DNA from: a virus
Direction: 5' to 3' (one strand)
Virus record (IMG/VR): IMGVR_UViG_3300005827_000088
Span: 1-61,875 of that record
Length of the DNA stretch: 61,875 nucleotides
The notes under the pieces are model-generated. The model worked only from the letters and a program-made list of their open reading frames with translations. It had not been told where the DNA came from and searched no databases. Shown here one piece after another: positions 8,994 to 60,779 of this stretch. The stretch's first letter is position 1. Each line of letters begins with the position of its first letter. Made by a program: the position numbers and the translations under genes.

Positions 8994-9070
8994 CGGTGCG
9001 TAGCCCAGCCAGGTAGGGCGCCTGCTTTGGGAGCAGGATGTCGGGGGTTCGAATCCCTCCGCACCGACCA
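8994..9070 (+). tRNA. tRNA-Pro(TGG) with encoded CCA
   Basis: A complete 77-base cloverleaf. Acceptor CGGTGCG pairs with CGCACCG, the D-stem is GCCC/GGGC, the anticodon stem CCTGC/GCAGG holds loop TTTGGGA (anticodon TGG, G37 next to it), and the T-arm has TTCGAAT. The 3' CCA is encoded. It begins at the base after the upstream stop codon. It would read CCA, CCG and, by wobble, other proline codons. Confidence 0.96.
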
Positions 9071-15901: not shown

Positions 15902-18900
15902 CTATTCAGCTTCTAAGTCCTTCTTCAACTGCTCCACCTGCTGCGGGGTCACAGTGATGGTGTGGCGCTTCATACCTTCGGTGTAGGCCTTGTGGTACAG
16001 CACCACATTCCGGTACATCTGGTCCTCGGTCTTCTTCAGCATCTCCACACGGCGCCGGCGCGCTTCGTTCGTGTAGTCCGGGTTGGCCTTCGTCTCCTCG
16101 ATCGCCTCGCGGATCTTGGCCGTCGTCACCCTCGTCTTGTGGATCGCGGCCTTCAGGGATACCGCAGCGTAAGCCTCCACATCGTTCTCGGGCAGCTTGT
16201 TCGGGTCATAGTCCTTGCGGTAGATCGACCGCTTGATCTCCTTGAACTCCTCGCCCGACAGCTTCGAGATCTCCATGAACTGCTTGTAGTTCGTGCGCGG
16301 GTCGCGCGCCACGGTGAAGTCCACGCCCAGGCTCTTGATGGTCGCCGTCAGGCCATCCTCCTCGCCCTGCAGCCAGCGCAGCATCTGGCCGACCTGCAGG
16401 GGCTGGGCGTCGCGAATGTTCGCCATGAAGATGGCCGGGAACTGAGAGATGTCCCTGGGGTTCTCGTCGCGCGTGCCCTTGACCAGCGAGAGCGAGCTCT
16501 TGCGGTCAGGATGCTGGACGCTCTTCTTCAGGTCGCTCACGCTCTTGTACGGACGGTCGCGCCAGTCCTGGCCGCTGATGTACGGGGTGATGACGCGCAC
16601 CAGCGGGCTGCCCTTGGCCGACAGGAACCGGCCGAGTTCGAACAGGCGCAGGGGGGCGATCATGAAGCCCGGGAGGTTGAACATGTAGCGCGTACCAGGG
16701 TCGATGTCGATCGGCTCCAGGCCCATGCTCTCGCGCATCTGGTTGACCTTGCGGTACAGACGCGTCACGTCGACCATGGCCCAGCGCAGCCTGGCAGCTG
16801 TGGGCAGGTCGCTCATCTGCTCGCGGTACATCTGGAACGGACCCTCCTCGGAGTCTCCGTTGATGAGCACCTGCGCCAGAAGCGTGGCCGCGGCCGCCGC
16901 GAGCAGTTGCTTCGCCAGGAACACGCGGTAGAACGAATCCCGGCCGGGGGGCGGAGGCATCTCGCCCAAGACCTTGGCGATGACCTTGTCCATGCCCGGG
17001 ATGGCCGCGAACGCAGGCTTCAGCTGGGTGATGGCCCAGTCAGGCGCGAGCATGATGAGGTGCAGGAACTTCGTCAGGTCCGGGTCGCGCCCGGCACGGC
17101 CCAGGTGCTGGCCGCCGAACGCGGTATTTGCGGCGTCCGCCACGATCTCGGCGATCTTGTCGACGTCAGGGGTCCTGCCGCGGGCGATCTCGTGCCGCAA
17201 CTGGTGCATGAAGTAGGTGTAGCCCCACTGGGCCTTGAAGCCAGCGTCGATGGTGGCAAAGAGGAAGTGCTCCGAACGGGAGCGCAGGATCTTCCCCACG
17301 GCTACGGCGTCCGCGGCCTTCTGGGAACCCATGGCGCGGATAAGCGTCTCGAAGATGCCCATGGCCTTGGTCATGTTGTGCCCGGTCATGTCGGCCATGG
17401 TCGGGAAGGTCATGCCCTTGCCCACGAGCTTCTGGATGACGGGGTTGCGTTCCTCGATGAGCTCCAGGCCGCTCAGGATGGCCTTGCGCCAGGACACGGA
17501 GTTCTTGACGCCGCGCAGCATGCCCACGATCCGCTTGGCCGCAGCCTTCTCAGCGACGGCTGTCGGGCGCCCCTTGGCGTCCAGCACGGCCGATCCGTAG
17601 ACCAGGGACCCCAGGATGTCGTGGGGGCCGCCGAAGGTCCAGGAGCGCATCAGGCTCTGGTGATGGAAGAAGTCGCCCAGGAGCATCCATGGCTTGAGCG
17701 TGCCGTTCAGGTACGTCAGGCTCTTGCCCAGGGGCTTGCTGAAGAACTTCCCGGCCTGCGAGGCGGTCATCAGGTTGATGGCGTTCGCGATGGCCGGAGG
17801 GGCGTAGAAGGGCACCTTTTCGAACACGTTCAGGTTCTCGCGGTACTCGACGCGCGCGTCAGTCAGCTGGTCAGCGTAGAGCCTGGCGTCGGCTTCGTTG
17901 TCGAATACGGCCGCGGCGCGCTTGCCCTGGCCGGCGAAGACCGCCCAGGTGACCTCGGGCTGCGTGACGAACAGGCGCCGGGAGTAGTTCCCGATGACGT
18001 CGTTCTTGGCCGCCAGGGTGTCGTTCAGGCCAGGATTGTCACGGATGACCGTCTTCACCGACGCCGTCGGTCTCCACACCTTCAGGGCGGGGGAGCGCAG
18101 CGGAAGCCAGTCGCCGGGGTTCTTCGTCGAGAGCACGCCCACGGCCATGCCGTCCTCGAGGAAGCGTGTGGTCGATGCAATCTTGACCGCGTCGGTCGTG
18201 ATCTCTTTCCAGGAGTTCGTGATGCCGCGGACCTCTGGAGCGAGTTCGTAGCCGTCCTGCATCGCGTCGAGCAGCGTGGGATACTTGCGCCGCATCAGGC
18301 CGGAGGAGAAGGACCGCACCGGGCTGCCGGACGCGCTCGGGGCCCCGGACGATTCCACGGGGCGGTCGTCGGGCGGCGTGAGCTTGCGGAACACATAGTC
18401 CTTGATCGGCTGGCCCTTGAGCTTGCCCAGGCGCTGGAACTCCAGGGTCGTGATGCGGAAGGCCGCTTCCATGTCCTTGTCGACGAAGTCGCGCTGGGCC
18501 GGGGTCAGGTTCTGGGCCTGCTCCAGGTCGCGCAGGAACTCCTGCAGGCGCAACTTGCGGTCACCGCTCCGCTTGCGCAGTTCGGTGGCAGCCCAGGCCT
18601 TGAAGTCGCGGATGCGGTCAGCTGCGGGCATTGGATTTTTGACGTGCGCGGCGTCGCTGTTCTTCAGGTCGCGGTAGATCAGCATGGCCATGTCCAGGCG
18701 CCGGGCCTTGACGGAGTCGTGCGAGACGCCGGCCAGGTCCTGGACCTTCTTCTGGAGATTCTTGAGGTTGACGTTCACGTCGAGCATGGCCCGGTCGTAG
18801 AGCTCGTGCACCTGCAGGGCGAAGGTGCGTTCACCCTCGGTCATGCCCTTCAGTGGGTTCTTGAAGATGGAGAACTGCACCTGGCCCAGGTTTCCGGCCA

Positions 18901-21900
18901 TGTCCGGACGCGTGCGCTGGACACGCTCGCGAAGCGTTTCGCGGTGCTCGCGGTTCAGGGCCTCGTTGACCCTGCGGTCTGCCCTCTCGAAACGCTTGCT
19001 CATGCGGTGTGCACGATTGATGAAGGCCCTGGTCTCGGCGTCCGTCCACTTCAAGGTGTGGCCGAACTTCTCCATGACCTTGCGCAGGAAGTCGCGCACG
19101 GCGGCCACGAAGCGGTCATACCAGCTGCCCTTCTGGTTGGCTTGGCGGGCGAACCACTCCTCGGTCGCCCGGGCACGCCCGTGGCGCGTCTCCAGGTCGA
19201 ACATCCCCCTGTAGTCGCCATTCGCCAGTTCGCGCACGTCGTCTCGGTTGGCTTCGTAGGCCTTGTTCAGGATGCCGTCGATGCGCTCGTTGGCCAGCTT
19301 GAAGCTGCCACCCATGGAGTTGGCGATGTCACGGCGCCACGCATCCACACCGCGATGCAGGTTCTCGTGCATGGCCCCGTCCAGGACGGCCAGGGCTACG
19401 TCCTCACGCCTGAGCATGCGGTCGGCCAGGATGTACATCTTCTTGGTCTGGGGGTCGTAGAGCGCCTCGACCTGGCTGGTGTCCATGGCGCGCTGAATGC
19501 CCATGGAGATCTCTGCCGGCAGGTCGATCCAGGTCGGCACGACCTCCACCATGGTGTGGGGGAACTTGGCCTTCGCGATCTTGTCTACCTCGGCCTGGAC
19601 GTCGGCTACGGTCAGCGTACCCTTCTTTCCCGCTTCGGTCCGGCCCATAGAACTGCTGGGCCTCTGGGTGATGTATGAGGTGCGCTCGACGATCTCGGCA
19701 TCGTCCATGCCTGTCTCAAGCAGGGATTGGCGCATTTCGTCTTCGGTCATCGGCTCGCCGTCAGCCGGATATTTTGCTTCCCATTCCGCACTGCCAGGAA
19801 TCAAGTCGGTGCTCGGAGTATTGAAAGGACCGTCTATCCACTTCCCGTCGGGAGTCTCGTAGAAGCGCATGTCGTCCGCTGCCACAGTCCGGAGACCTTG
19901 CTTCTTCGGTTCCAGGTAGGGCATCCTGTCCGTAATCATCGGGCGGGCTACGGACGGCCACTGGTTTTGGATGGAATCAGCATAGGTTTCGGCCTGCTTT
20001 CTGGTCGGGAAGTAGTCTCCGAGATCTGATGCGTCGACGAAGAAGCGCTTCTTCTGGGCACCCAGTTCTGTAGCGTGATCAGCAACGAAGTCTTCGTAGG
20101 CGACCTTCAGGCCCAGCTTTGACAGTTTCACCGGGTTCGAACGCTTTACGTAGAACGCTGCGATGTCGTCGTTGCTGTAGCCGTTGATGATGCCCAGGCT
20201 GATCGGGGTCTTGGCACTACCCTCAAAGGGCAGATCTTTGCCCGTCGCCTTGTGCACTGTACCGCGTTCGGCCATGGTAACAAATTCATCGAAGGTGGGC
20301 ATCTTCTTGAATATGCCCATGCGACCGCCGTGCAGTAGGGTCAGCCTTTTTTCACCCACTTCCCGCCGACTTTCTTGAAGCCCCGCTTCTCCCAGGACAT
20401 TCCGGCCGCCAACCGCGACAGGCCCTTCGGCTGCGCCTGTTCTTCCGCCAGCTGGCTCGACTCCTCGGGGCGGTACCCGGCTTGCGTCAACATCCGGCCC
20501 AGGGCCTCCGGAGGCAGCATCCCCGCCTTCTCGTACACGGTCGAGATCTCCTGCAATGGATTCGATTTCATCAGCGAACTCCTTGTAGAATTTAGTCGCC
20601 TTGGCTTCCATCGTCGCCAGGCGCAGGTGCCCGAGCAGCATGCTCTGGCGCGCCAACTCAGAGGTGAAACTATCGGAGTGATTGGATTCACGGTTGTGCA
20701 CGTTCTCGTGCAGCAGGGTGTGGACTGACGCCGACCCAAGGATGCGCTCCCTGGATTCGCCGGATTCGACGAGGGCCTTGTACTCATCGGTCTGGATGAG
20801 CGGCTTGTTATTCCACTCACCTTTGGTCATCATGGTGAGCGGGTTGATCGCGATAATCTTCCCCTCTCCAGTCAATCCGGACGGCGCGTGCCATCCATAG
20901 ACCGTATTGTCCAGGGTGATCATCAGCTTTGTGTTCGCGCCAAGGTTCGCGCTGTCGATCATCGCCTTCCAGGTGGAGAGCAGCTTCCCGTAGGATGCAA
21001 AGAACTTTTCATGATTTTCCACCACCTCGCGCGCGCCCTCGACGTCCGGGTACGAGGCCTTGGGGATCAGCACTGGAGTCCCACCCATCACTGGAGCCTT
21101 GGCGATCATCTCGCGGAACTCGGCCACGCGCTCGTCGGTCGCGTTTTTATTGAGCTTCTCTACGTAGTCCTTAATGACCTTGGCGATCTTGTCGCCGACT
21201 CCGGACATCACCACGGTCCGGTTCTTCAGGAACGGGTATTGCCCATGCTCAGGTTCGTGGGTCTTGGTGAAGTCAATCGCCACGCTGAAGTCTGGCTTGA
21301 TGTCGGCTCCAGGTATTCCGATGCCGTTGATGTAGTCGTACTGATCCTGCTTGAGCGCCGGAAGCGGCATACCCTTGCTGTAGACCTGGGCATGGATGAT
21401 GAACTGTCCTCCGAACATCTTCCTTGCAGGCAAGTCGCTCTTAACGAAGTGTACGGTGGCCCTGTTTTCTCCGTCGACGATCTCCACTGAAGGCGTGACT
21501 TTGGGCATGTCGCTCAGGAGGGTTGACTGGTATTCCTTGACCCTGGCGAACATCTTTTCGCCGTTCTCGTCGGCCGGCATCCAGTCGTTGTACCCGTAGT
21601 CGCTCGAACCCTTTTCGGAGTAGTCGTTGATCCCATGAGCAGTGACTTTCAGATTCTTGGTGCGCAGGCCCTTCGCGTATGTCAGCATGGCTGACTCGAA
21701 TGTGCTGGCGTCGTCGTAGTAGATGCCCTCTTCGGATACCCCGGTAGGCATCGTCGCCACGAACATGGTCCCGCGTTCTCCATCCAGGGCGTCCCTGGTG
21801 ATGACGGGGAAATCCCCATCCATGAGTTCGTCGCGGGTTGCCGTAATCTCGGTCGTCTTGCCGCCCTTGGTGGTCCTGACGAACACGTTCTCGGGGTAGA

Positions 21901-24900
21901 ACAGGAAAGCGACCTTAGCCATGCCATAGCCGCCGACGTTGTCTGTCCCGCCCTTGCCCTTGGCGCCGATGGCCAGGAACTTCGTCTTGACGTCCTTGGC
22001 CGTCATGCCAATGCCGTTGTCCTTGATGCCGACCTTGAACGTCTTGTCCTCAGTGCTGCGGATATCGAGAGCTACCTCGACATGCGCATCCTTGGGCCAC
22101 TTGGCATCAATGAGCGAGTCGATGGAGTTCTGGAACAGTTCGCTCACGACGGTGCGCGCCGGGTTCTGGTTCAGGATGTCCTTGCTCAGGATGCGCTTGA
22201 TGAGGCGCGGATCGGTGACGACCTTGGCCCTGCTGGTCTTGGAGAACTGCAGCTGATGTTCGAACTCCAGCTTCCCGTCAACCTCGTGGAATGCCACGCG
22301 GCCGCCTGGGACATCCTGGAAGTAGACCAGGCCGCCGTAGGGCGAGGCTTCCATGTCGTAGCCGTCGCGGCCGTATGCCACACCCTCAGCCATGGCTCGG
22401 GCCAGCGCGACGCGCTCCGGGCCTGATACGCTCGCCCCGGACCGTGCCAGGTCGGCCAGGGCTTCCGGGCTTTCCAGGGCCGACTGGACGGTGGGGACTT
22501 CGGGCTTGCGCTCCGCAGGCGCGCTGGGGGCCTCGTAGCCGCCCATGATGTCTTCGATCACCACACCTTCGGCCGGCGCGTCGAAGTCGAAGGCCTCGAT
22601 GTCGGTGCCCATGCTTGGGATCTTCCCGCTGACCACCGCACCCATGTCCTGCATGCGGCCGCCGACCTTCGCCGCTATGGTGCGCTCGAAGTCGTGGTCG
22701 AGGAACAGCCAGCGCACTTCGGACGGCTTCAGCATGCCCAGGCGCGTCACGCGGCCCAGGACCTGCTTCATCACGGTCGCGGTCCAGGGCATGTTCAGGC
22801 CGATCAGCACACGCTCCGGGTCGCCCGGGCGCCTGGAGTGCAGGGACAGGCCCGTGCCGCCTTTCGCCATGGTCGCCACGAGCAGGGGCTTCTTGTTGTC
22901 CAGCCACTGATCGAGATCCGCATTGGCCGCGTTCTCCGTGCGGTCCCCGGTGAAGATGGCGGTCTTGTCTGCGCCAACTCCATTGACGATGCGGGCCACG
23001 GTGCTCTCCAGCGACTCGTCCAGCCCGGCCTCGTGCAGGGCCTGGGCAACAGCCATCTGGAAGCGCGAGTACGGAGGCTTGCCGGCGTCGCCGCCCATGG
23101 CAGACTGCTCGGCAGCCCAGTCGCGCATGACCTCGGCCATGCCCGGGTAGTCCTTCCCGCTGATCTCTTTCTTAGCCCTGGTCTCGACGAAGATCACGGC
23201 CTGCTTGCCCTGGGCGATGACGTCCTTGGCCTCGGCCACGGCCGCGTCGACCTTGGCGTCCTCCATGATGCGCTTGAGCGTGTTCGTCATGTACCCGGCC
23301 AAGTTGCGCCTGAGCGTGCGGTCCGCCCCAGCGTCCTCGATGGCACGCATCATGGCCTCAGAGAAGTTGTCTGCCAGGGCGACGTTCGCGTCCGTAGGGG
23401 GCACGCTCTTGAGTTCGGTCGTCACCATACCCGGCTCGAGCTTCATCTCGCGCTGGGCCAGCATGCCCTGCTTCTCCAGCCACTGCCTGGCGGCCATGGC
23501 GTTCTCGTTCTGCTTCTGGCGCTCGGCCGGGGTCTGCCCGCGTTCCCATTCAAGGATCTGCTTCTCGCGGCCGCCCTTGATGCGGATCTTGCGCTGGCCG
23601 GCGCCGAACGCCAGGGCGAAGTCGCTGAACGGCGTTCCGCTGATGGCGCGCCCCAGCCCGGTCATTCCTTCGAGCTGATCGAACACGCCGCTCGCTGCGA
23701 TGTACCCCATCTGCGTCGGGTTCTCAAAAGGTGTGGCGGACGCCATGATGTTGAACTTGGCGCTCTTCATGTACTTCTGGCCCAGGTCGGCCCGGGCGGC
23801 TCCGCTCTCTTCGCCGGCGTCGGAGGTGTTCTTGACAGAGTGGCCCTCGTCCCAGGCGATGACGGCCCCGTCGATCTTGATGTCGGAGACCTTCTTGCCC
23901 GCGTGGATCTGGCTCATGTCGGTGTAGGTGATGAACTGCAGGCGGTCATTCAGGCCGAACGGTTCGATGTCGGCCTTGATCTGTTCGATCAGGCGGCGGT
24001 TCTGGGTCACCCAGACGAGCGGTCCCACATGGTTGCGGGCTATCTCCTTGAGTGCGCCGGCGATGACGAAGGTCTTGCCCATGCCGGGGTCGCTGGCCAG
24101 GACGAAGGCGTTCTTGCCGGTTTCGAATGCGGACTTGATCTTTCCGATGTCCGCGACCTGAGCGTCCAGGACATCCTGCGGGATGGCCCCTTCGCCCTTC
24201 TGGATGAGGGATCTCGTCTGCTTCCCAACCAGGTTTTGAGGATATTCAGGAGCGATGCTCGGGAACAGGTCGAGCTTCTGGCGCAGGGCCTTGATCTGGA
24301 TGCCGATGCCCTCGCCGGCCAGGCCTCGACCGCCGACCTTGGTTGGCTCGGCTTCGGGCTTCGGGTTCAGCTTTCCCTTGAAGTCTTCGTACTTCGCGTC
24401 TCTGGCGGAGTTCGCCTGCTCAACAGCTGCAGCAAGAGCGGCCGTGGGATCACCGTCAAACGCACGCCATACCTTGCCGCCGAACTTGACGCCGGGCAGC
24501 GCCTTGATGGCGTCTTTGTTGTCGTAGGTCTTGCCGGAAATCTCCCAGTAGGGCTTGCCGGTCTTCTGCGAAACCTTCTCGGTAACGACCAGGCCGGCGT
24601 CCTTGAGCGTCTTGGACACGACGGGCTTGGGCTTCTGCGGTTCGGCCGCGGGCTTGACGACGCCGGGATCCTTGGCCGGGGCGACAGGGGGCTTCACCTC
24701 GGCCTTGCCCTTCAGCTTGAGCCACTGGTCAGGCGTCTTGACTCTCACCTCATCAAGGGTGAGCTTGCCGTCGGTGTAGGCCTGGGCCACGGCATCGTCG
24801 TACTCGGCCTTCTTGGCATTCCAGGCCTTGAGGTCGCCGCTCTTGACTTCCTTGCCGCCGACGATCTGTGGCGGACTGGGCTTCGGCCCGGCGAACTCGC

Positions 24901-27900
24901 GCAGGGTCATCTCCCAAGGCTCGCGCAGATCCTCTTCGGTCAGGTCCAGGACCGGCTCCTCTTCCTTGGGCAAGGGAACGTCCTTTTCCTTAACTTGCGT
25001 CTCACCTACGGAAACTTTCGGCTCTTGCGTCTCACTTTCAGGCTTTTCCGAGACGCTATCTTCGACCTGGCCCATGGCCTCCTTGTAACTCCTGGGTGCA
25101 CGCTCCTGGGTCTTGTCGTAGTCGCTCATCACGCTGTCTATGATCTTCTGCAGGCCGGTGCGGTCGATTTCGATGCCCGGCATGGTCGGCCGGCTGGTCA
25201 ACTCGCGCAGGGCCTCGGCGTAGCCCTTCCAGGCCGCGGCGAACTCGCGCGGGGTGAAGGTCACCAGCGCGCGGAACTGTTCGGTGACGGTCTTGTTCCC
25301 GCGCAGATCCATGACGTCGGGCATCATGCTCGGCTGCTTCAGGTAGAAGTCCGGCTCGTACTTCCTGGCCGCGCCCTTGTTCTTGTTCATCCAGGCCTGT
25401 TTCTGGGCATTGTAGTCCAGGAACAGCTTGATGACGTCGGACATGGTCTGGCTGACCCAGTTCTCGCCCATGGCCTTGGCATACGCCAGGTGCGGCAGGG
25501 CGAAGTCGAACGTCTTGAGCTCGTCGGCGTTGGCCCGGCGGAAGCGCTGGAGCAGATCGTTGTCGGGGACGACGTAGCCGCGCACGGCGGCCTCGATGGT
25601 GTCCTTACCGTCAGGGGTGAGCTTGCCATCGACGAGGTACTGCGCCCTGTTCTGCAGGTCTAGCACGCCGTCTGTTTCCAGGCCCGGCACGAGTTTCTGG
25701 CTCGCGTGTGGAGAGTCCAGATATCCGCGCAGGGTGTCGTAGCCGGACAGTCCGCTGGCGAACTCCGAGATGGTCTTCTTGGACAGGCCCTTGGCCGCCG
25801 CCACACCTTTGGAGATCTTGTCCTGGCCGGTCATGGCCGGCTTGTTCAGCACGCCGGAGATGCGTCCGAGCTCGCGTGCGTCCTTCTCTCCCAGGTTGAA
25901 GTCGAGCGCGCGCACCAGAACGGGGTGCTTGAAGCGGCCGACGTCCTCCGGATTCAGGCCGAACGCCGCAGCGTCCTCCTTCATGGCGTCGATGTACTGC
26001 TGGTAGCGATCCGGATGCTTGTCGGCCAGGATGTCCAGGACCATCTTGCGGCTGTTGCCGCCCAGGACATAGCCGTCGCGAGTGATAACGCTCGGCCCAG
26101 TCTCGGCCGTAGGCCCGGTGTTGACCAGGTGGCTCGGGTCGAACTTCGCCACGCGGGCGTGCACCTGATCCTGGTGCGTCTGGTCCGTCGCATACGGGCG
26201 ATCCTGCACGCCGGCAGGATAGTCCGGGTTGTCCCGGAACTGTTCCAGAGGATTGTGGCTGGCCTTCAGGTCGCCAAGCTCCCGCAGTTCGTAGTGCACG
26301 GGGAACTTCTCGCCCTTGACTCCGGAGATCGCAGCTACATGCTTGCGCTTTCCTCGGACGGCTCCGTCGGGAGGTCCGGGGACGACGTCTCCTCCGGCTG
26401 CGGATTCGCTCCCAGCGGGCTGGGCGCCCCCAGCCTGGACCGGAGCATCGACTCGGTCAGCGCCCTCGGGTCGCCCGACCGCAGGCCCGACCGGAGCCTG
26501 GACACGTCCTTCAGGTCCTGGGGCTTGCCCGACGGTTTCCACTGGGGCAGGCTGCCCTTGCTGGACGACCGGCTGCTGCGGCCCAGGCCCGGCGACAATG
26601 GGTCCCTGTTCAGGAACGCCTCCGCCGAGGATGCTCCCGTCACCTGGTCTGCCGACTGGTTGAACTTCTGCTCCTGCTTCGCCCGGGCGTCCATTTCCTT
26701 CCGGTGCCAGGACTTCTTGGACTTGCTGCCCATTGGGTGCTCCTTCGCCCGGCATCACCGGGGCATTTGGCTGAGGACCTGTGGAACCTGACGGCTGCAT
26801 GTCCGGGCCAGGAAGAGCTTTCGGAGAGCCAGGCACGGGCGACATCAGGTCAAGAGAGGCATCCTTCGGAGGAGTCGGCTTCATGGATCCGCCCTGGCCA
26901 ACCTGCCAGCTGGGATCTGTCATCTCGCTCTCGAGAGTGCGCGAGTACGGCTCCACACCGAAGGCTTCCTTGAACTTGGCGAAATACGGACGGTCCGCGA
27001 TGCGCAGGGCCACCTCGGTCGGAAGCTCGATGCTCAAGCCTTCCCTGGTGGCCTTGATGATGTCGGCGTTCGTCAGACCGTAGTTCTTCATGTCCTGGAA
27101 CAGCGCGTAGTCTTCGGGACCCAGGCCGCCACGGGCTTCGGAACTGGCGCCCATGATGTCGCGCACCTTCGTCGGGGAGAAGTAGACCTTCTCGGGCACG
27201 CCAGTCGTCTTGACGATGTGCCGCGTCAGGGCGTTAATCTCATTCCCGCCGTACTGGCCCAGGGTGTGCGCGCCGGCCGCGGCCGCCTCGAACGCCGCGA
27301 ACAGTTTGATGTTCTCCCAGGCCGTCTGAGGGTCCTGGGGGAGCGAGTACAGCGCGCCGGTCGCGGCACCATGCAGTGCGCGCCCAGCCAGCTGGCCTTC
27401 GACGCTGGCCATGGCAGCCGGGCGGAGCAGGGAGAACGCAGGTTGTGCTGCCGCGCTCACCGCCATGCCGGACGGGATGAGCAGGGCCATGTCACCGGCC
27501 ATCTGTGCGGTACCGCGCATAGTGCCCAGCACGCCGATGCCGCCGACATTCGTCCGCGGGTCGATGCCAGTCTGCCCGGCCGTCTTGCTGGCGATGTCCT
27601 GATAGAACTTCGCCGTCGCGCTCTCGCGACCGAAGCCAGCCCCGGCCAGGCCGGCCATGGCGTCTTCGACGAGCATCTTGCCCATGTTCGCGACATGGTA
27701 GGCGTCGCGCAGCACGCTCCGCTTACCCTCCTCGTCGTACTCAGGAGCGATCTGCCCTGCAGGGCCTTCGGTGACGGAGTAGTCAGGGCCGAACGTCTTG
27801 GGGGTCTCGGTCAGGCTCTCGGCATTGGCCTTCTGCTTGGCCGCCTCCTGCCGTCCGACGTCCGCCGTGGCACCCATGATCGTGGGGCTGGCCGCAGCAC

Positions 27901-28366
27901 TACGCCCGGCCTCCTCGATATCCTGCTTGTCGCGGGCCGCCGGGCCGAACATGGCCGACTGCTCAGGGGTGAAACCGACCTCCCGAGCGTTGATCTTCGG
28001 AGTAGGCGCGGCGACCGGGGCCCTGGGGACGGGGTTGACCGGGGCCCGAACGTAGCCCGTGTCGCCCATGTTCACCGAGATGAAGTTCTGGATGATCTTG
28101 GCCTGACGGTCCGGCGGAAGCTGCTGGAACTCGGCGTCGGCCAGGTTCTTCTGGAAGTAGTTCGTGGCGATCTTGGTCTGGCGCTCGGGGGTCAGTTCAA
28201 GGAACGCCGGATCAGACTTCCAGGATGCGACGACCGGGTCGGTCGAAGGCGCGGGCTGTGGAGGCGCGGCCGCTTCCACACCATCGAGGGCGGAGGGCTT
28301 CGGCTCTGGAGCCGGGGCGTAGGGGTTGGCCTGGAGAAACGCAGAACCAGAAGCCATCTCAGCCAT
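15902..28366 (-). CDS. Giant polyvalent virion protein (4,154 codons)
   Basis: Domains in order (approximate residues): 1-130 helical repeats; 210-350 hydrophobic segments; 480-670 Pro/Gly-rich; 690-1100 DdrB/ParB-like with GGNSRK near 769; 1400-1900 SNF2-like helicase with GMGKT near 1425, DEGH near 1506, SATPF and GRVTRLGM near 1872; 2070-2300 HSP90/MORC-like GHKL ATPase with ELFQNSID, DNGIGM (about 2117) and GGYGMAKVA; HENVH near 2553; HENLH near 3000; and a C-terminal region of about 1,000 residues like other large polyvalent proteins. Such proteins are packaged and injected to act early in the host. It is last in the structural operon, starting at ATG 28366 after CGGAGG. Two internal stretches (26335-26733 and 20341-20571) look coding only in the +1 frame, so this may be a fusion of several genes, possibly through an indel. 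Confidence 0.8.
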   Translation of the reverse strand: MAEMASGSAFLQANPYAPAPEPKPSALDGVEAAAPPQPAPSTDPVVASWKSDPAFLELTPERQTKIATNYFQKNLADAEFQQLPPDRQAKIIQNFISVNMGDTGYVRAPVNPVPRAPVAAPTPKINAREVGFTPEQSAMFGPAARDKQDIEEAGRSAAASPTIMGATADVGRQEAAKQKANAESLTETPKTFGPDYSVTEGPAGQIAPEYDEEGKRSVLRDAYHVANMGKMLVEDAMAGLAGAGFGRESATAKFYQDIASKTAGQTGIDPRTNVGGIGVLGTMRGTAQMAGDMALLIPSGMAVSAAAQPAFSLLRPAAMASVEGQLAGRALHGAATGALYSLPQDPQTAWENIKLFAAFEAAAAGAHTLGQYGGNEINALTRHIVKTTGVPEKVYFSPTKVRDIMGASSEARGGLGPEDYALFQDMKNYGLTNADIIKATREGLSIELPTEVALRIADRPYFAKFKEAFGVEPYSRTLESEMTDPSWQVGQGGSMKPTPPKDASLDLMSPVPGSPKALPGPDMQPSGSTGPQPNAPVMPGEGAPNGQQVQEVLAPEGNGRPGEAGAEVQPVGRPGDGSILGGGVPEQGPIVAGPGPQQPVVQQGQPAPVETVGQAPGPEGRVQAPVGPAVGRPEGADRVDAPVQAGGAQPAGSESAAGGDVVPGPPDGAVRGKRKHVAAISGVKGEKFPVHYELRELGDLKASHNPLEQFRDNPDYPAGVQDRPYATDQTHQDQVHARVAKFDPSHLVNTGPTAETGPSVITRDGYVLGGNSRKMVLDILADKHPDRYQQYIDAMKEDAAAFGLNPEDVGRFKHPVLVRALDFNLGEKDARELGRISGVLNKPAMTGQDKISKGVAAAKGLSKKTISEFASGLSGYDTLRGYLDSPHASQKLVPGLETDGVLDLQNRAQYLVDGKLTPDGKDTIEAAVRGYVVPDNDLLQRFRRANADELKTFDFALPHLAYAKAMGENWVSQTMSDVIKLFLDYNAQKQAWMNKNKGAARKYEPDFYLKQPSMMPDVMDLRGNKTVTEQFRALVTFTPREFAAAWKGYAEALRELTSRPTMPGIEIDRTGLQKIIDSVMSDYDKTQERAPRSYKEAMGQVEDSVSEKPESETQEPKVSVGETQVKEKDVPLPKEEEPVLDLTEEDLREPWEMTLREFAGPKPSPPQIVGGKEVKSGDLKAWNAKKAEYDDAVAQAYTDGKLTLDEVRVKTPDQWLKLKGKAEVKPPVAPAKDPGVVKPAAEPQKPKPVVSKTLKDAGLVVTEKVSQKTGKPYWEISGKTYDNKDAIKALPGVKFGGKVWRAFDGDPTAALAAAVEQANSARDAKYEDFKGKLNPKPEAEPTKVGGRGLAGEGIGIQIKALRQKLDLFPSIAPEYPQNLVGKQTRSLIQKGEGAIPQDVLDAQVADIGKIKSAFETGKNAFVLASDPGMGKTFVIAGALKEIARNHVGPLVWVTQNRRLIEQIKADIEPFGLNDRLQFITYTDMSQIHAGKKVSDIKIDGAVIAWDEGHSVKNTSDAGEESGAARADLGQKYMKSAKFNIMASATPFENPTQMGYIAASGVFDQLEGMTGLGRAISGTPFSDFALAFGAGQRKIRIKGGREKQILEWERGQTPAERQKQNENAMAARQWLEKQGMLAQREMKLEPGMVTTELKSVPPTDANVALADNFSEAMMRAIEDAGADRTLRRNLAGYMTNTLKRIMEDAKVDAAVAEAKDVIAQGKQAVIFVETRAKKEISGKDYPGMAEVMRDWAAEQSAMGGDAGKPPYSRFQMAVAQALHEAGLDESLESTVARIVNGVGADKTAIFTGDRTENAANADLDQWLDNKKPLLVATMAKGGTGLSLHSRRPGDPERVLIGLNMPWTATVMKQVLGRVTRLGMLKPSEVRWLFLDHDFERTIAAKVGGRMQDMGAVVSGKIPSMGTDIEAFDFDAPAEGVVIEDIMGGYEAPSAPAERKPEVPTVQSALESPEALADLARSGASVSGPERVALARAMAEGVAYGRDGYDMEASPYGGLVYFQDVPGGRVAFHEVDGKLEFEHQLQFSKTSRAKVVTDPRLIKRILSKDILNQNPARTVVSELFQNSIDSLIDAKWPKDAHVEVALDIRSTEDKTFKVGIKDNGIGMTAKDVKTKFLAIGAKGKGGTDNVGGYGMAKVAFLFYPENVFVRTTKGGKTTEITATRDELMDGDFPVITRDALDGERGTMFVATMPTGVSEEGIYYDDASTFESAMLTYAKGLRTKNLKVTAHGINDYSEKGSSDYGYNDWMPADENGEKMFARVKEYQSTLLSDMPKVTPSVEIVDGENRATVHFVKSDLPARKMFGGQFIIHAQVYSKGMPLPALKQDQYDYINGIGIPGADIKPDFSVAIDFTKTHEPEHGQYPFLKNRTVVMSGVGDKIAKVIKDYVEKLNKNATDERVAEFREMIAKAPVMGGTPVLIPKASYPDVEGAREVVENHEKFFASYGKLLSTWKAMIDSANLGANTKLMITLDNTVYGWHAPSGLTGEGKIIAINPLTMMTKGEWNNKPLIQTDEYKALVESGESRERILGSASVHTLLHENVHNRESNHSDSFTSELARQSMLLGHLRLATMEAKATKFYKEFADEIESIAGDLDRVREGGDAASGGPGPDVDASRVPPRGVEPAGGRTGAAEGPVAVGGRNVLGEAGLQESRREVGEKRLTLLHGGRMGIFKKMPTFDEFVTMAERGTVHKATGKDLPFEGSAKTPISLGIINGYSNDDIAAFYVKRSNPVKLSKLGLKVAYEDFVADHATELGAQKKRFFVDASDLGDYFPTRKQAETYADSIQNQWPSVARPMITDRMPYLEPKKQGLRTVAADDMRFYETPDGKWIDGPFNTPSTDLIPGSAEWEAKYPADGEPMTEDEMRQSLLETGMDDAEIVERTSYITQRPSSSMGRTEAGKKGTLTVADVQAEVDKIAKAKFPHTMVEVVPTWIDLPAEISMGIQRAMDTSQVEALYDPQTKKMYILADRMLRREDVALAVLDGAMHENLHRGVDAWRRDIANSMGGSFKLANERIDGILNKAYEANRDDVRELANGDYRGMFDLETRHGRARATEEWFARQANQKGSWYDRFVAAVRDFLRKVMEKFGHTLKWTDAETRAFINRAHRMSKRFERADRRVNEALNREHRETLRERVQRTRPDMAGNLGQVQFSIFKNPLKGMTEGERTFALQVHELYDRAMLDVNVNLKNLQKKVQDLAGVSHDSVKARRLDMAMLIYRDLKNSDAAHVKNPMPAADRIRDFKAWAATELRKRSGDRKLRLQEFLRDLEQAQNLTPAQRDFVDKDMEAAFRITTLEFQRLGKLKGQPIKDYVFRKLTPPDDRPVESSGAPSASGSPVRSFSSGLMRRKYPTLLDAMQDGYELAPEVRGITNSWKEITTDAVKIASTTRFLEDGMAVGVLSTKNPGDWLPLRSPALKVWRPTASVKTVIRDNPGLNDTLAAKNDVIGNYSRRLFVTQPEVTWAVFAGQGKRAAAVFDNEADARLYADQLTDARVEYRENLNVFEKVPFYAPPAIANAINLMTASQAGKFFSKPLGKSLTYLNGTLKPWMLLGDFFHHQSLMRSWTFGGPHDILGSLVYGSAVLDAKGRPTAVAEKAAAKRIVGMLRGVKNSVSWRKAILSGLELIEERNPVIQKLVGKGMTFPTMADMTGHNMTKAMGIFETLIRAMGSQKAADAVAVGKILRSRSEHFLFATIDAGFKAQWGYTYFMHQLRHEIARGRTPDVDKIAEIVADAANTAFGGQHLGRAGRDPDLTKFLHLIMLAPDWAITQLKPAFAAIPGMDKVIAKVLGEMPPPPGRDSFYRVFLAKQLLAAAAATLLAQVLINGDSEEGPFQMYREQMSDLPTAARLRWAMVDVTRLYRKVNQMRESMGLEPIDIDPGTRYMFNLPGFMIAPLRLFELGRFLSAKGSPLVRVITPYISGQDWRDRPYKSVSDLKKSVQHPDRKSSLSLVKGTRDENPRDISQFPAIFMANIRDAQPLQVGQMLRWLQGEEDGLTATIKSLGVDFTVARDPRTNYKQFMEISKLSGEEFKEIKRSIYRKDYDPNKLPENDVEAYAAVSLKAAIHKTRVTTAKIREAIEETKANPDYTNEARRRRVEMLKKTEDQMYRNVVLYHKAYTEGMKRHTITVTPQQVEQLKKDLEAE
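20341..20571 (-). CDS. +1-frame gene nested in the giant ORF
   Basis: 76 residues from ATG 20571, with AAGGAG seven bases upstream. Sequence such as EISTVYEKAGMLPPEALGRM and a basic end (GFKKVGGKWVKKG) looks like real protein, and its codons end mostly in G or C. The enclosing frame here is Gly/Pro/Arg-rich with no such bias. It could be a separate protein, or the true C-terminus of the upstream part reached by a +1 shift near 20560; the join EIESI to QEISTVYEKAG reads smoothly. Confidence 0.55.
   Translation of the reverse strand: MKSNPLQEISTVYEKAGMLPPEALGRMLTQAGYRPEESSQLAEEQAQPKGLSRLAAGMSWEKRGFKKVGGKWVKKG
26335..26733 (-). CDS. +1-frame gene nested in the giant ORF
   Basis: 132 residues from ATG 26733, with GAAGGAG seven bases upstream. 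The N-terminus is basic and helical (MGSKSKKSWHRKEMDARAKQ) and the remainder is Ser/Pro-rich and probably disordered. Roughly nine in ten codons end in G or C. The enclosing frame reads as a Pro/Gly/Gln/Val linker with weak bias. It may be a small virion or scaffolding-like protein. Family unknown. Confidence 0.55.
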   Translation of the reverse strand: MGSKSKKSWHRKEMDARAKQEQKFNQSADQVTGASSAEAFLNRDPLSPGLGRSSRSSSKGSLPQWKPSGKPQDLKDVSRLRSGLRSGDPRALTESMLRSRLGAPSPLGANPQPEETSSPDLPTEPSEESASM

Positions 28367-58424: not shown

Positions 58425-60779
58425 TCACCCCACTTTCTCCCCCTCAGACTTCCCACCTGTGGAGACGACCTTCTTGGCGATGTACCTCTGCCACCGCTCC
58501 TGATTGGGCAGCAAGTAGGCTCTGGTCGTGGTCTTGACGATGGCGTCGCCCTCCGTTCTCGTGTAGGCGATGAGCTTTGGCTGCGCGCCCCACTGGACGA
58601 GCGCCGCGGCGACGGCCTTCTGCGAAAGAAGCTGGAGGTCGCGGACATTGTCCCGGAGGGCCGAGAGGATGATGTACATCTCCCCGCCCTTAACGAATGG
58701 CTCACGGCGTTCGACGGCATAGGCGACATCTTCCCTGACGCGCTGCCCGATCCCTTGCAGGTAGCCCTCCACGCAGTTGTCCATGATGCCCTGGTCAGTG
58801 CCATCCGTCCCGACCAGCACCACCTCCCTGGTGATGTGCAGCGCCTTGAAGATGCTGTCCCATCCTTCGATCTTGCGTGGGAAATAGACCCCGGCATCCG
58901 CCACCTTCAGCGCAAGTTTGCTGTATGTGTGGACATTTTCAATTCCACCCAGGGTAACGGCTTCCCCCTCAACGTGCAGCACGTAGGAACTCGGCTCGGC
59001 CTTGAAGCACACGAGTCTCTCTACCTTGGCACCCAAACGGTCGCCGATCTCGCGCATCAGGGCCTCTCGCTGCGTTTCCGACTCACCCTGGGCCTCGGCA
59101 GCCTGGAACTCCGCCAAAAGCCTCTCAATGGCACTGGAGCGATTTTTTGATGGCTTCGGTCCGCGCTTTGGAGCTATGCCAAGTTCCTCCTGGAGCGCGC
59201 GCTTCGCCTCACGCTCGGCCGCAGTGGCATTCTTTCGTGCCTCCCGGCGTTCGAGGACAGCTTCTTTGTGCCGTTCCTCGTCCATCGTGTGGCTGACATC
59301 CTTGGCCGCTTCGTTGCGCAGCTTCTCCTCTGCTCGGTCCTGCTCACTGCGCGCCCGGGCTTCCTTGGCGGTCCTGATGGTTCGCTCGATGTAGTCGGCC
59401 CGGGAACCCTTAGCCACCTCGTCCTGTGTCTTGCCGTGGCGGACGCGGAACTGCCTGATGATCTCGGCGATGACCCGGTCCTCGACGTCGAGGTTGACGC
59501 AGAAGAGGGCCAGGGCGCCGTCGTAGGACGACAATGAATTGTCATTGAACCCGCGCCGGCGGTCCCATGTGGCCTCGAACTTCGGAATGGTGCAGAGGTT
59601 GTCGATGGTGGCGTCGACTATCTGAAGAAGCCCAGGGCCTCCGCCGTCAGGTGCGTCTTCTCCCAGATGACCTTCGCGTCCCGCTCGTCCGTCCCCGGGG
59701 GAACCTGGACCTTGACGACTGCCAGCTTCTTGCCGAAGGCCGTGATCGGGACCACCACAATGGCCCCGCCCTCCCTCATCGAGCGCCTCCTGGCGACCCT
59801 GATCAGGTCGTCCAGCTTCGCCAGGGCGGTGTCCATCGGCACCTCCTGTGGAGTGAGCAGGTCGTCCCCCCTGATGTTCGCCATCGCCAGGTCCTGGACG
59901 GGTCTCTCCTTCCGCAGGTGATCCATTCTCCAGCCGCGATCCACGATCGGCTCCCCGTCCACGTCCATCGCCTGATCCATGCCCATCTCGCGCTCCTTGC
60001 GTGCCCAGCAGCCCGGTGCCCTGGGGTTTGAGTGTTGCTTCGGCGCCCCGCACGCCTTCCATAACCTCCTCGACAGAAAACCGCGGCCCCCCGTCCATCA
60101 GAATGCTGGTTGGCCGCGCGAGATCGCCGGTACCTTTCTTGACGTTCCAGGTTCCAGGCAGCCGCATGACGCGTGCGAGGTCGAAGACGCTGTCGGTGGT
60201 GAGGCCGCGTGCCTGGCAGTGGGCGAGGAGAATTTTGTTCCAGGACTCTGTGAGGGCGGCGGCGACCGGGTGGAACATGATGTCTGAGCGCCCCATGAGT
60301 ATGTCTGAGACCTCGCCCATGGGACGAAGTGTGACGGGCTGGTCGAAGAGCCACCAGCCCTGGATGCCGCCGCCCGAGTGGACGACGAGCGTTGGGGGCA
60401 GGGGCATGAGGTGGAGCAGGGCGAGGGCCTCGTCCACAGTTTTTGGGAGGTTGGCGGCTTTCTTGTGGCAGCCGTCGTCGACGTCCATATCGAGCCAGAG
60501 GCCGGGGATGGCGACGATGTCGGCGGCTTTGCAGCGCTGGTGTGAGCCGAAGGCGCGGTCGGCGAGTCCGCATCCGAGGTAGATGTCGGCGTCCTTGTGT
60601 GGGACGATGCGCTTGAGGAGGTTCGTTGCTTCGGCGACGGACTTGCACCAGTAGGAGCGTTTCTCGGCCTTGGCTCCGTTTGCCGGGTCGCTGGGCGAGG
60701 GCCTGCGTGTCCAGATGAGGAGGTGGTTTCCGGCGGGAATGTCGGCTGGCCAGAGTTGCTGGAGGAAGTTCTGGTACAT
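58425..60779 (-). CDS. DNA primase (AEP-like), with a nested frame in the middle
   Basis: 784 residues. N-terminal primase: LWLDMDVDDG, VVHSGGGIQGWWLF and DLARVMRLPGTWNV are the acidic pair, the Ser/Gly loop and a late conserved block of archaeo-eukaryotic-type primases. The C-terminal part (FEATWDRRRGF, RVRHGKTQ) matches the primase C-terminal domain of similar phage proteins, followed by a long helical tail. Between them (about 265-390) the frame reads as Gly/Asp/Arg-rich filler, while the +1 frame (59618-59986) is clearly coding-like. So the primase may be an expanded, fused or split gene. Confidence 0.78.
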   Translation of the reverse strand: MYQNFLQQLWPADIPAGNHLLIWTRRPSPSDPANGAKAEKRSYWCKSVAEATNLLKRIVPHKDADIYLGCGLADRAFGSHQRCKAADIVAIPGLWLDMDVDDGCHKKAANLPKTVDEALALLHLMPLPPTLVVHSGGGIQGWWLFDQPVTLRPMGEVSDILMGRSDIMFHPVAAALTESWNKILLAHCQARGLTTDSVFDLARVMRLPGTWNVKKGTGDLARPTSILMDGGPRFSVEEVMEGVRGAEATLKPQGTGLLGTQGARDGHGSGDGRGRGADRGSRLENGSPAEGETRPGPGDGEHQGGRPAHSTGGADGHRPGEAGRPDQGRQEALDEGGRGHCGGPDHGLRQEAGSRQGPGSPGDGRAGREGHLGEDAPDGGGPGLLQIVDATIDNLCTIPKFEATWDRRRGFNDNSLSSYDGALALFCVNLDVEDRVIAEIIRQFRVRHGKTQDEVAKGSRADYIERTIRTAKEARARSEQDRAEEKLRNEAAKDVSHTMDEERHKEAVLERREARKNATAAEREAKRALQEELGIAPKRGPKPSKNRSSAIERLLAEFQAAEAQGESETQREALMREIGDRLGAKVERLVCFKAEPSSYVLHVEGEAVTLGGIENVHTYSKLALKVADAGVYFPRKIEGWDSIFKALHITREVVLVGTDGTDQGIMDNCVEGYLQGIGQRVREDVAYAVERREPFVKGGEMYIILSALRDNVRDLQLLSQKAVAAALVQWGAQPKLIAYTRTEGDAIVKTTTRAYLLPNQERWQRYIAKKVVSTGGKSEGEKVG
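59618..59986 (-). CDS. +1-frame gene nested in the primase ORF
   Basis: 122 residues from ATG 59986, with AAGGAG seven bases upstream. Good protein content such as LAKLDDLIRVARRRSMREGG, AFGKKLAVVKVQVPPG and a final HLTAEALGFF. Nearly every codon ends in G or C, unlike the primase frame there. No family is recognised. It may be a real, independently translated small gene, or the primase frame may be broken by indels. Confidence 0.65.
   Translation of the reverse strand: MGMDQAMDVDGEPIVDRGWRMDHLRKERPVQDLAMANIRGDDLLTPQEVPMDTALAKLDDLIRVARRRSMREGGAIVVVPITAFGKKLAVVKVQVPPGTDERDAKVIWEKTHLTAEALGFFR

Follow-up and report, generated by a model that had tools for sequence, protein, structure and literature searches.

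A small gene nested one base out of step in the interdomain tether of a predicted RepB'-type phage primase, with a probable origin by insertion

A small complete gene is nested, one base out of step, in the interdomain tether of a primase gene in the phage genome studied here. The window, by which we mean the stretch of DNA that was analysed, is the whole of IMG/VR virus record IMGVR_UViG_3300005827_000088 (61,875 nt), and the case is known from this one genome. Among its genes are ORFs with portal-like, large-terminase, major-capsid, internal-virion-protein and SF1 helicase family matches, while the sole Rfam match of the window at the gathering threshold was a tRNA gene (8994-9067, + strand). 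The nested ORF (59618-59986) is complete and lies within another gene (58425-60779) in a different frame (Table 1). A preliminary description of the sequence had reported a 122-residue +1 ORF with its own AAGGAG and ATG inside the primase, and all of these elements were present as stated. The reading we favor, with a probability of roughly 0.7, is that a ready-made gene was inserted in the primase tether and that the outer frame stayed open, the locus thus specifying one primase chain and a separate 122-aa protein.

Table 1. Positions of the outer and nested reading frames and of associated features in the window
Feature	Position	Strand	Description
Outer primase ORF	58425..60779	-	784 aa; predicted RepB'-type (archaeo-eukaryotic) primase; PHROG, Pfam of relatives, Foldseek
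Nested +1-frame ORF	59618..59986	-	122 aa, ATG start, TAG stop; codon score and change points at its borders
Shine-Dalgarno (SD) AAGGAG of nested ORF	59993..59998	-	6 nt 5' of its ATG; sequence
N-terminal catalytic domain, residues 1-262	59994..60779	-	Alignments A1-A4; model confident to about residue 250
Outer-frame stretch of very low model confidence, residues 253-379	59641..60023	-	Gly/Arg/Asp/Pro filler, predicted disordered
C-terminal half: helix bundle (from residue 384), coiled-coil stretch, C-terminal domain	58425..59621	-	Conserved residues, pLDDT
4154-aa ORF	15902-28366	-	ddrB-ParB (684-820), Strawberry-notch-type helicase and HATPase domain matches
Second nested +1 ORF	26335..26733	-	132 aa, SD GAAGGAG; inside 4154-aa ORF
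Third nested +1 ORF	20341..20571	-	76 aa, SD CAAGGAG; inside 4154-aa ORF

The outer ORF is predicted to encode a RepB'-type primase, and its product looks functional. Residues 62-240 matched PHROG 2478 (DNA polymerase/primase; E 1e-17). Analyzed alone, the 784-aa window protein gave no Pfam match reaching thresholds, intein families included; among 56 aligned family members, RepB_primase_C was detected in 20 and RepB_primase in six. In an AlphaFold2 model run on the family alignment (mean pLDDT 80) the catalytic domain was confident to about residue 250, with pLDDT mostly above 90, residues 253-379 dropped to a pLDDT of about 30-44, and a helix bundle followed from residue 384 with pLDDT above 90. 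The top PDB match of this model in Foldseek was 3h20, the RepB' protein of RSF1010 (E 7.6e-7, probability 1.00, 493 alignment columns), which spanned both domains; Prim-Pol 7nqd was also matched, weakly. The PHROG and fold matches identify an AEP-type catalytic domain with a DxD motif (D97/D99), and the occurrence of RepB_primase_C in relatives together with the confident helices identifies the C-terminal helix bundle. Family-conserved residues retained in the window include D97, D99, R203, R206, N212 and K214 in the catalytic half as well as S417, Y419, Y463, T467, A471 and W640 in the C-terminal half, and of the 34 columns in which at least 85% of the relatives agree, 31 were retained across both halves. 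The HMM score of the window was at the family median for the catalytic domain and at the 15th percentile for the helix bundle, and neither half therefore looks decayed. The linker between the two domains of RepB' measures 42 residues, 14 of which form a flexible tether (PMC4434180), and this architecture, taken with the domain borders in the AlphaFold2 model, locates the nested gene in the interdomain tether. The filler between the catalytic and helix-bundle domains comprises about 122 codons and coincides with the complete nested ORF. Its earlier characterization as low-complexity sequence parting two primase domains was borne out by the low pLDDT flanked by confident domains and by its composition, as outer residues 265-387 contain 38 Gly among 123 residues and are 6.5% hydrophobic, compared to 34% for the nested protein.

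To gather relatives of the primase, its N-terminal part was used as the seed for pattern searches of viral contigs and species genomes, and about 300 loci were obtained. Interdomain spacing was then taken from HMM anchors on both domains at 150 loci, which comprise 129 distinct sequences besides the window once two loci of broken frame are left out. The spacing had a median of 68 codons (5-95% range 57-82, maximum 128) and was between 50 and 95 codons at 148 of the 150 loci. In the window it amounted to 182 codons, and subtraction of the 122 codons of the nested ORF leaves 60, within the family range. Both anchors resided in a single ORF at 149 of 151 loci, window counted. The nested protein was encoded at none of the 150 relative loci, a long Gly-rich filler was absent from all of them, and none carried an in-frame extra domain at the insert site; the long linker is thus not a feature of the family. 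An alignment of homologous primases had been proposed in the preliminary description, and it turned out as anticipated there, the parts before about residue 262 and after about residue 388 being joined by the short tether. A linker of the same kind without a nested frame, which that description had named as the contrary outcome, was not found among the 150 loci. The sole long linker among the relatives, present in L141 and L142, which are probably one phage, measures 128 codons and occupies the same place, but is Ser/Asn/Glu-rich and unrelated to the filler of the window. The in-frame linker of these two loci indicates that the tether tolerates lengthening. At two other loci, L181 and L262, the catalytic and helix-bundle anchors were situated in separate ORFs with a spacing that was not a whole number of codons, which reflects a frameshift, either real or introduced during assembly.

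Codon statistics distinguished clearly between the two frames. GC content by codon position rotates from outer codon ~260 to ~385, and GC3 in this stretch was 0.91 for the nested frame and 0.40 for the outer frame, compared to 0.76 (sd 0.04) expected for the outer residues. Using a codon log-odds model built from the long genes of the window, we obtained scores per codon of about 0.36-0.37 for the nested frame and -0.24 for the outer frame, the latter being similar to that of a non-coding frame. A two-change-point version of this model, which locates frame switches, put the entry into the +1 frame at 59998 (range 60004-59998) and the return to the outer frame at 59623, and it outperformed a model with no switch by about 83 nats. 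These positions coincide with the nested SD/ATG and stop, respectively, and the strong codon bias previously ascribed to the nested ORF was corroborated. Two null models were employed, the first with the outer residues fixed and codons sampled from phage usage in 5000 draws, the second with the nested residues fixed. Under the first, the +1 frame was open in 85-87% of random codings, so that openness alone is no evidence for a nested gene. The +1 codon score under this model had a mean of -0.02 (sd 0.05), and the observed value of 0.37 was reached in none of the 5000 draws. The coding signal of the inner frame therefore exceeds what the outer protein imposes, and in this stretch it is the nested frame that resembles coding sequence. 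Under the second null model, chance left the outer frame open in 6-17% of trials, and the openness of this frame by itself does not prove read-through. An SD match of at least six bases, the class to which the AAGGAG of the nested ORF belongs, was found for 44 of the 2026 ATGs in the window (2.2%).

According to the codon-usage criterion for the age of overlapping genes, the frame with typical codons is the older one (PMC8227390). An overprinted inner frame would be expected to be the less typical in codon usage, and at this locus the outer frame was the atypical one. Since the nested codons are typical and the outer GC3 is far below expectation, the nested frame is the older and the outer frame the younger by this criterion. 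This order of ages and the lack of the stretch in relatives jointly favor insertion over overprinting. The earlier proposal of a gene inserted without closing the outer frame is thereby supported, given that relatives lack the insert and that the outer frame is free of stops. The reverse order of events, in which a Gly-rich disordered tether lengthened first and the +1 gene arose de novo within it, would be the way in which internal overlaps in viruses, mostly in the +1 frame, usually arise (PMC8227390). It is also compatible with the capacity of the tether to lengthen in frame, as seen in L141/L142, with the openness of the +1 frame that a Gly/Asp/Arg filler usually permits, and with the orphan status of the nested protein, which suits a young gene. 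We nevertheless consider this order unlikely in view of the phage-typical codons of the nested frame, the extreme and non-coding-like codons of the outer frame and the difference in hydrophobic residues between the two products.

When the window was scanned for nested ORFs preceded by at least five SD-matching bases, exactly three were recovered, the one in the primase and two within the 4154-aa ORF (Table 1). The latter ORF resembles the antirestriction proteins DdrB/DarB known from other phages. The nested ORF at 26335-26733 is located in a Pro/Gly/Gln-rich linker (residues 544-677) just ahead of the ddrB-ParB domain and showed a switch gain of 40 nats, while that at 20341-20571 is found in a Gly/Ala/Arg-rich stretch with an outer GC3 of 0.47 versus 0.75 expected. 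Both have AAGGAG 6-7 bases 5' of the ATG and exhibit a codon-frame switch as in the primase. A window hit at 1083-1526 was set aside, being covered by ORF 848-1942, which is probably the real gene there. The chances of an open outer frame for the three cases were 0.062, 0.021 and 0.114; their product of about 1.5e-4, which serves as a guide and not as a test because the three cases were picked for being open, suggests that stops are kept out of the outer frames. Third-base G was 0.55 and 0.59 in the primase-nested and 26335-26733 ORFs, compared to 0.22-0.46 in 13 other genes, as expected if the first codon position of the outer frame is also constrained, although an unusual donor would look alike. 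Background scans of the relatives relied on locus-trained codon models that were noisier than that of the window, and resulted in nine hits in 1.64 Mb of long ORFs with one version and one hit in 2.7 Mb with the other. This noisier model recovers the primase case and misses both cases in the 4154-aa ORF. Two of the background hits were inspected, of which L127 looks like an antisense ORF and L064 like a Thr/Ser/Pro-rich linker.

For the primase case the insertion origin is argued from aligned relatives, and this case is the only one of the three for which it is; the pair in the 4154-aa ORF apparently represents the same arrangement, as far as sequence features indicate. A broader reading, which we put forward tentatively and with somewhat less than even odds, is that this phage houses at least three ready-made guest genes (122, 132 and 76 aa, each preceded by AAGGAG and read in the +1 frame) in disordered tethers of its large proteins, the primase and the 4154-aa DdrB/DarB-like protein, with selection keeping the outer frames stop-free and disordered protein being born in the outer frame. 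If true, this would be the reverse of classical overprinting. Should the two further cases hold, they would point to a repeated habit of one phage and to a class of genes that is missed by gene callers, which retain the longest ORF.

The three cases also bear on an explanation by assembly error, according to which two compensating single-base errors would have disguised an in-frame extra primase domain and the nested start and stop would be coincidental. The normal composition of the stretch when read in the nested frame, including its hydrophobic content, agrees with this explanation. It would, however, require two indels within about 380 bp, exactly at the nested SD/ATG and stop, as well as four more matched indels for the two ORFs nested in the 4154-aa ORF. 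Moreover, the large terminase, portal-like, major capsid, internal virion and SF1 helicase ORFs are unbroken and about 51 kb of the window is called coding, while an extra domain at this site was not seen in any relative, which makes assembly error improbable.

Judged from the sequence, translation of the outer frame probably continues across the filler to give one chain. Frame 0 contains no stop between the primase halves, and the interval between residues 243 and 416 lacks any outer-frame ATG, GTG or TTG. Use of the nearest start for the C-terminal half, at residue 416, would truncate the conserved helix bundle. Lacking a nearby start codon, the C-terminal half would most simply be made by reading through the filler. 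These features weigh against a split primase, in which the small gene would separate two genes and the N- and C-terminal halves would be two polypeptides. Such an organization could draw on the independent DNA binding of each RepB' domain (PMC4434180) and on the separate ORFs at L181 and L262, but we regard it as very improbable. The RNA around the nested start was less stable than 197 of 200 shuffles, which fits an accessible start, and translation of both frames is predicted from the SD, the weak RNA structure, the intact outer frame and the conserved outer domains. No canonical X XXY YYZ heptamer for -1 frameshifting was present near the nested stop; the nested frame had a single heptamer at 59699 and the outer frame one at 59871, both away from the borders, and programmed -1 frameshifting was discarded.

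Removal of the filler from the primase by an intron, an intein or a ribosome hop would be in line with the absence of the stretch from relatives. An insert is also found in the helicase of relative L010 (8580-9409), where the SF1 helicase match falls into two pieces with 828 nt (276 codons, in frame) between them, possibly an intein. At the primase locus neither a recognizable intron core nor a splicing domain was detected in the Rfam scan at the gathering threshold and the Pfam search, respectively. The insert is nearly all ORF, which leaves no space for an intron core, and the stretch is open throughout without stops. This possibility appears the most remote of those considered.

The nested protein is most likely an accessory phage protein. 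Its relatives were sought in phage records, IMG/VR contigs, plasmids and GTDB species genomes, as well as in 19 related virus records, PHROGs, NCBIfam and PADLOC, and none were found; thus no relative lends independent support to the existence of the nested protein or to a donor gene. A match to Pfam HetR_C (E 0.013) was under the family cut-off and was rejected. The single-sequence model had a mean pLDDT of 55 with a low-confidence helix-strand-strand-helix arrangement at residues 51-117, and a Foldseek search with this low-confidence model returned nothing at E <0.001.

Under the insertion reading, a complete small gene, equipped with a ribosome-binding site and a stop of its own, would have entered the tether of a RepB'-type primase in the +1 frame, with the outer frame stop-free by chance or maintained so. 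The primase would remain a single chain with a tether longer by about 122 disordered de novo residues, and the same mRNA would give the 122-aa protein separately, by initiation at the internal AAGGAG/ATG. Flexibility of the tether presumably allowed the insertion to be tolerated, and a survivor effect may account for the open outer frame, as in a replication gene only frame-keeping insertions would persist. By this route, a gene and a disordered linker would be gained in one step and an essential enzyme retained. Viral overlaps are usually put down to overprinting, in which the inner frame is the later arrival, whereas in the primase of the window this role would fall to the outer filler.

RepB' of plasmid RSF1010 (PDB 3h20; RepB_primase and RepB_primase_C) likewise consists of a catalytic domain and a helix bundle connected via a tether. 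In contrast, the tether of the phage primase is longer and contains another gene, and an extra C-terminal region follows the helix bundle. The primases of mycobacteriophage TM4 and its kin (PHROG 2478) have a homologous catalytic domain with about 30% identity, but are longer, have other C-terminal parts and can be aligned to the window in the catalytic domain alone. Overlapping genes are already known from phages, and an inserted gene tolerated by an open outer frame, apparently three times in one phage, would be an unusual variant. Familiar nested examples are E in D of PhiX174 and Rz1 in Rz of lambda, in which a small gene similarly lies wholly within a larger one, in another frame and with an internal ribosome-binding site. 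For PhiX174 E, the inner frame has been judged the younger one, arising by overprinting (PMC8227390). In the primase of the window, by contrast, codon usage and the family comparison indicate an older, inserted inner frame and a young outer filler.
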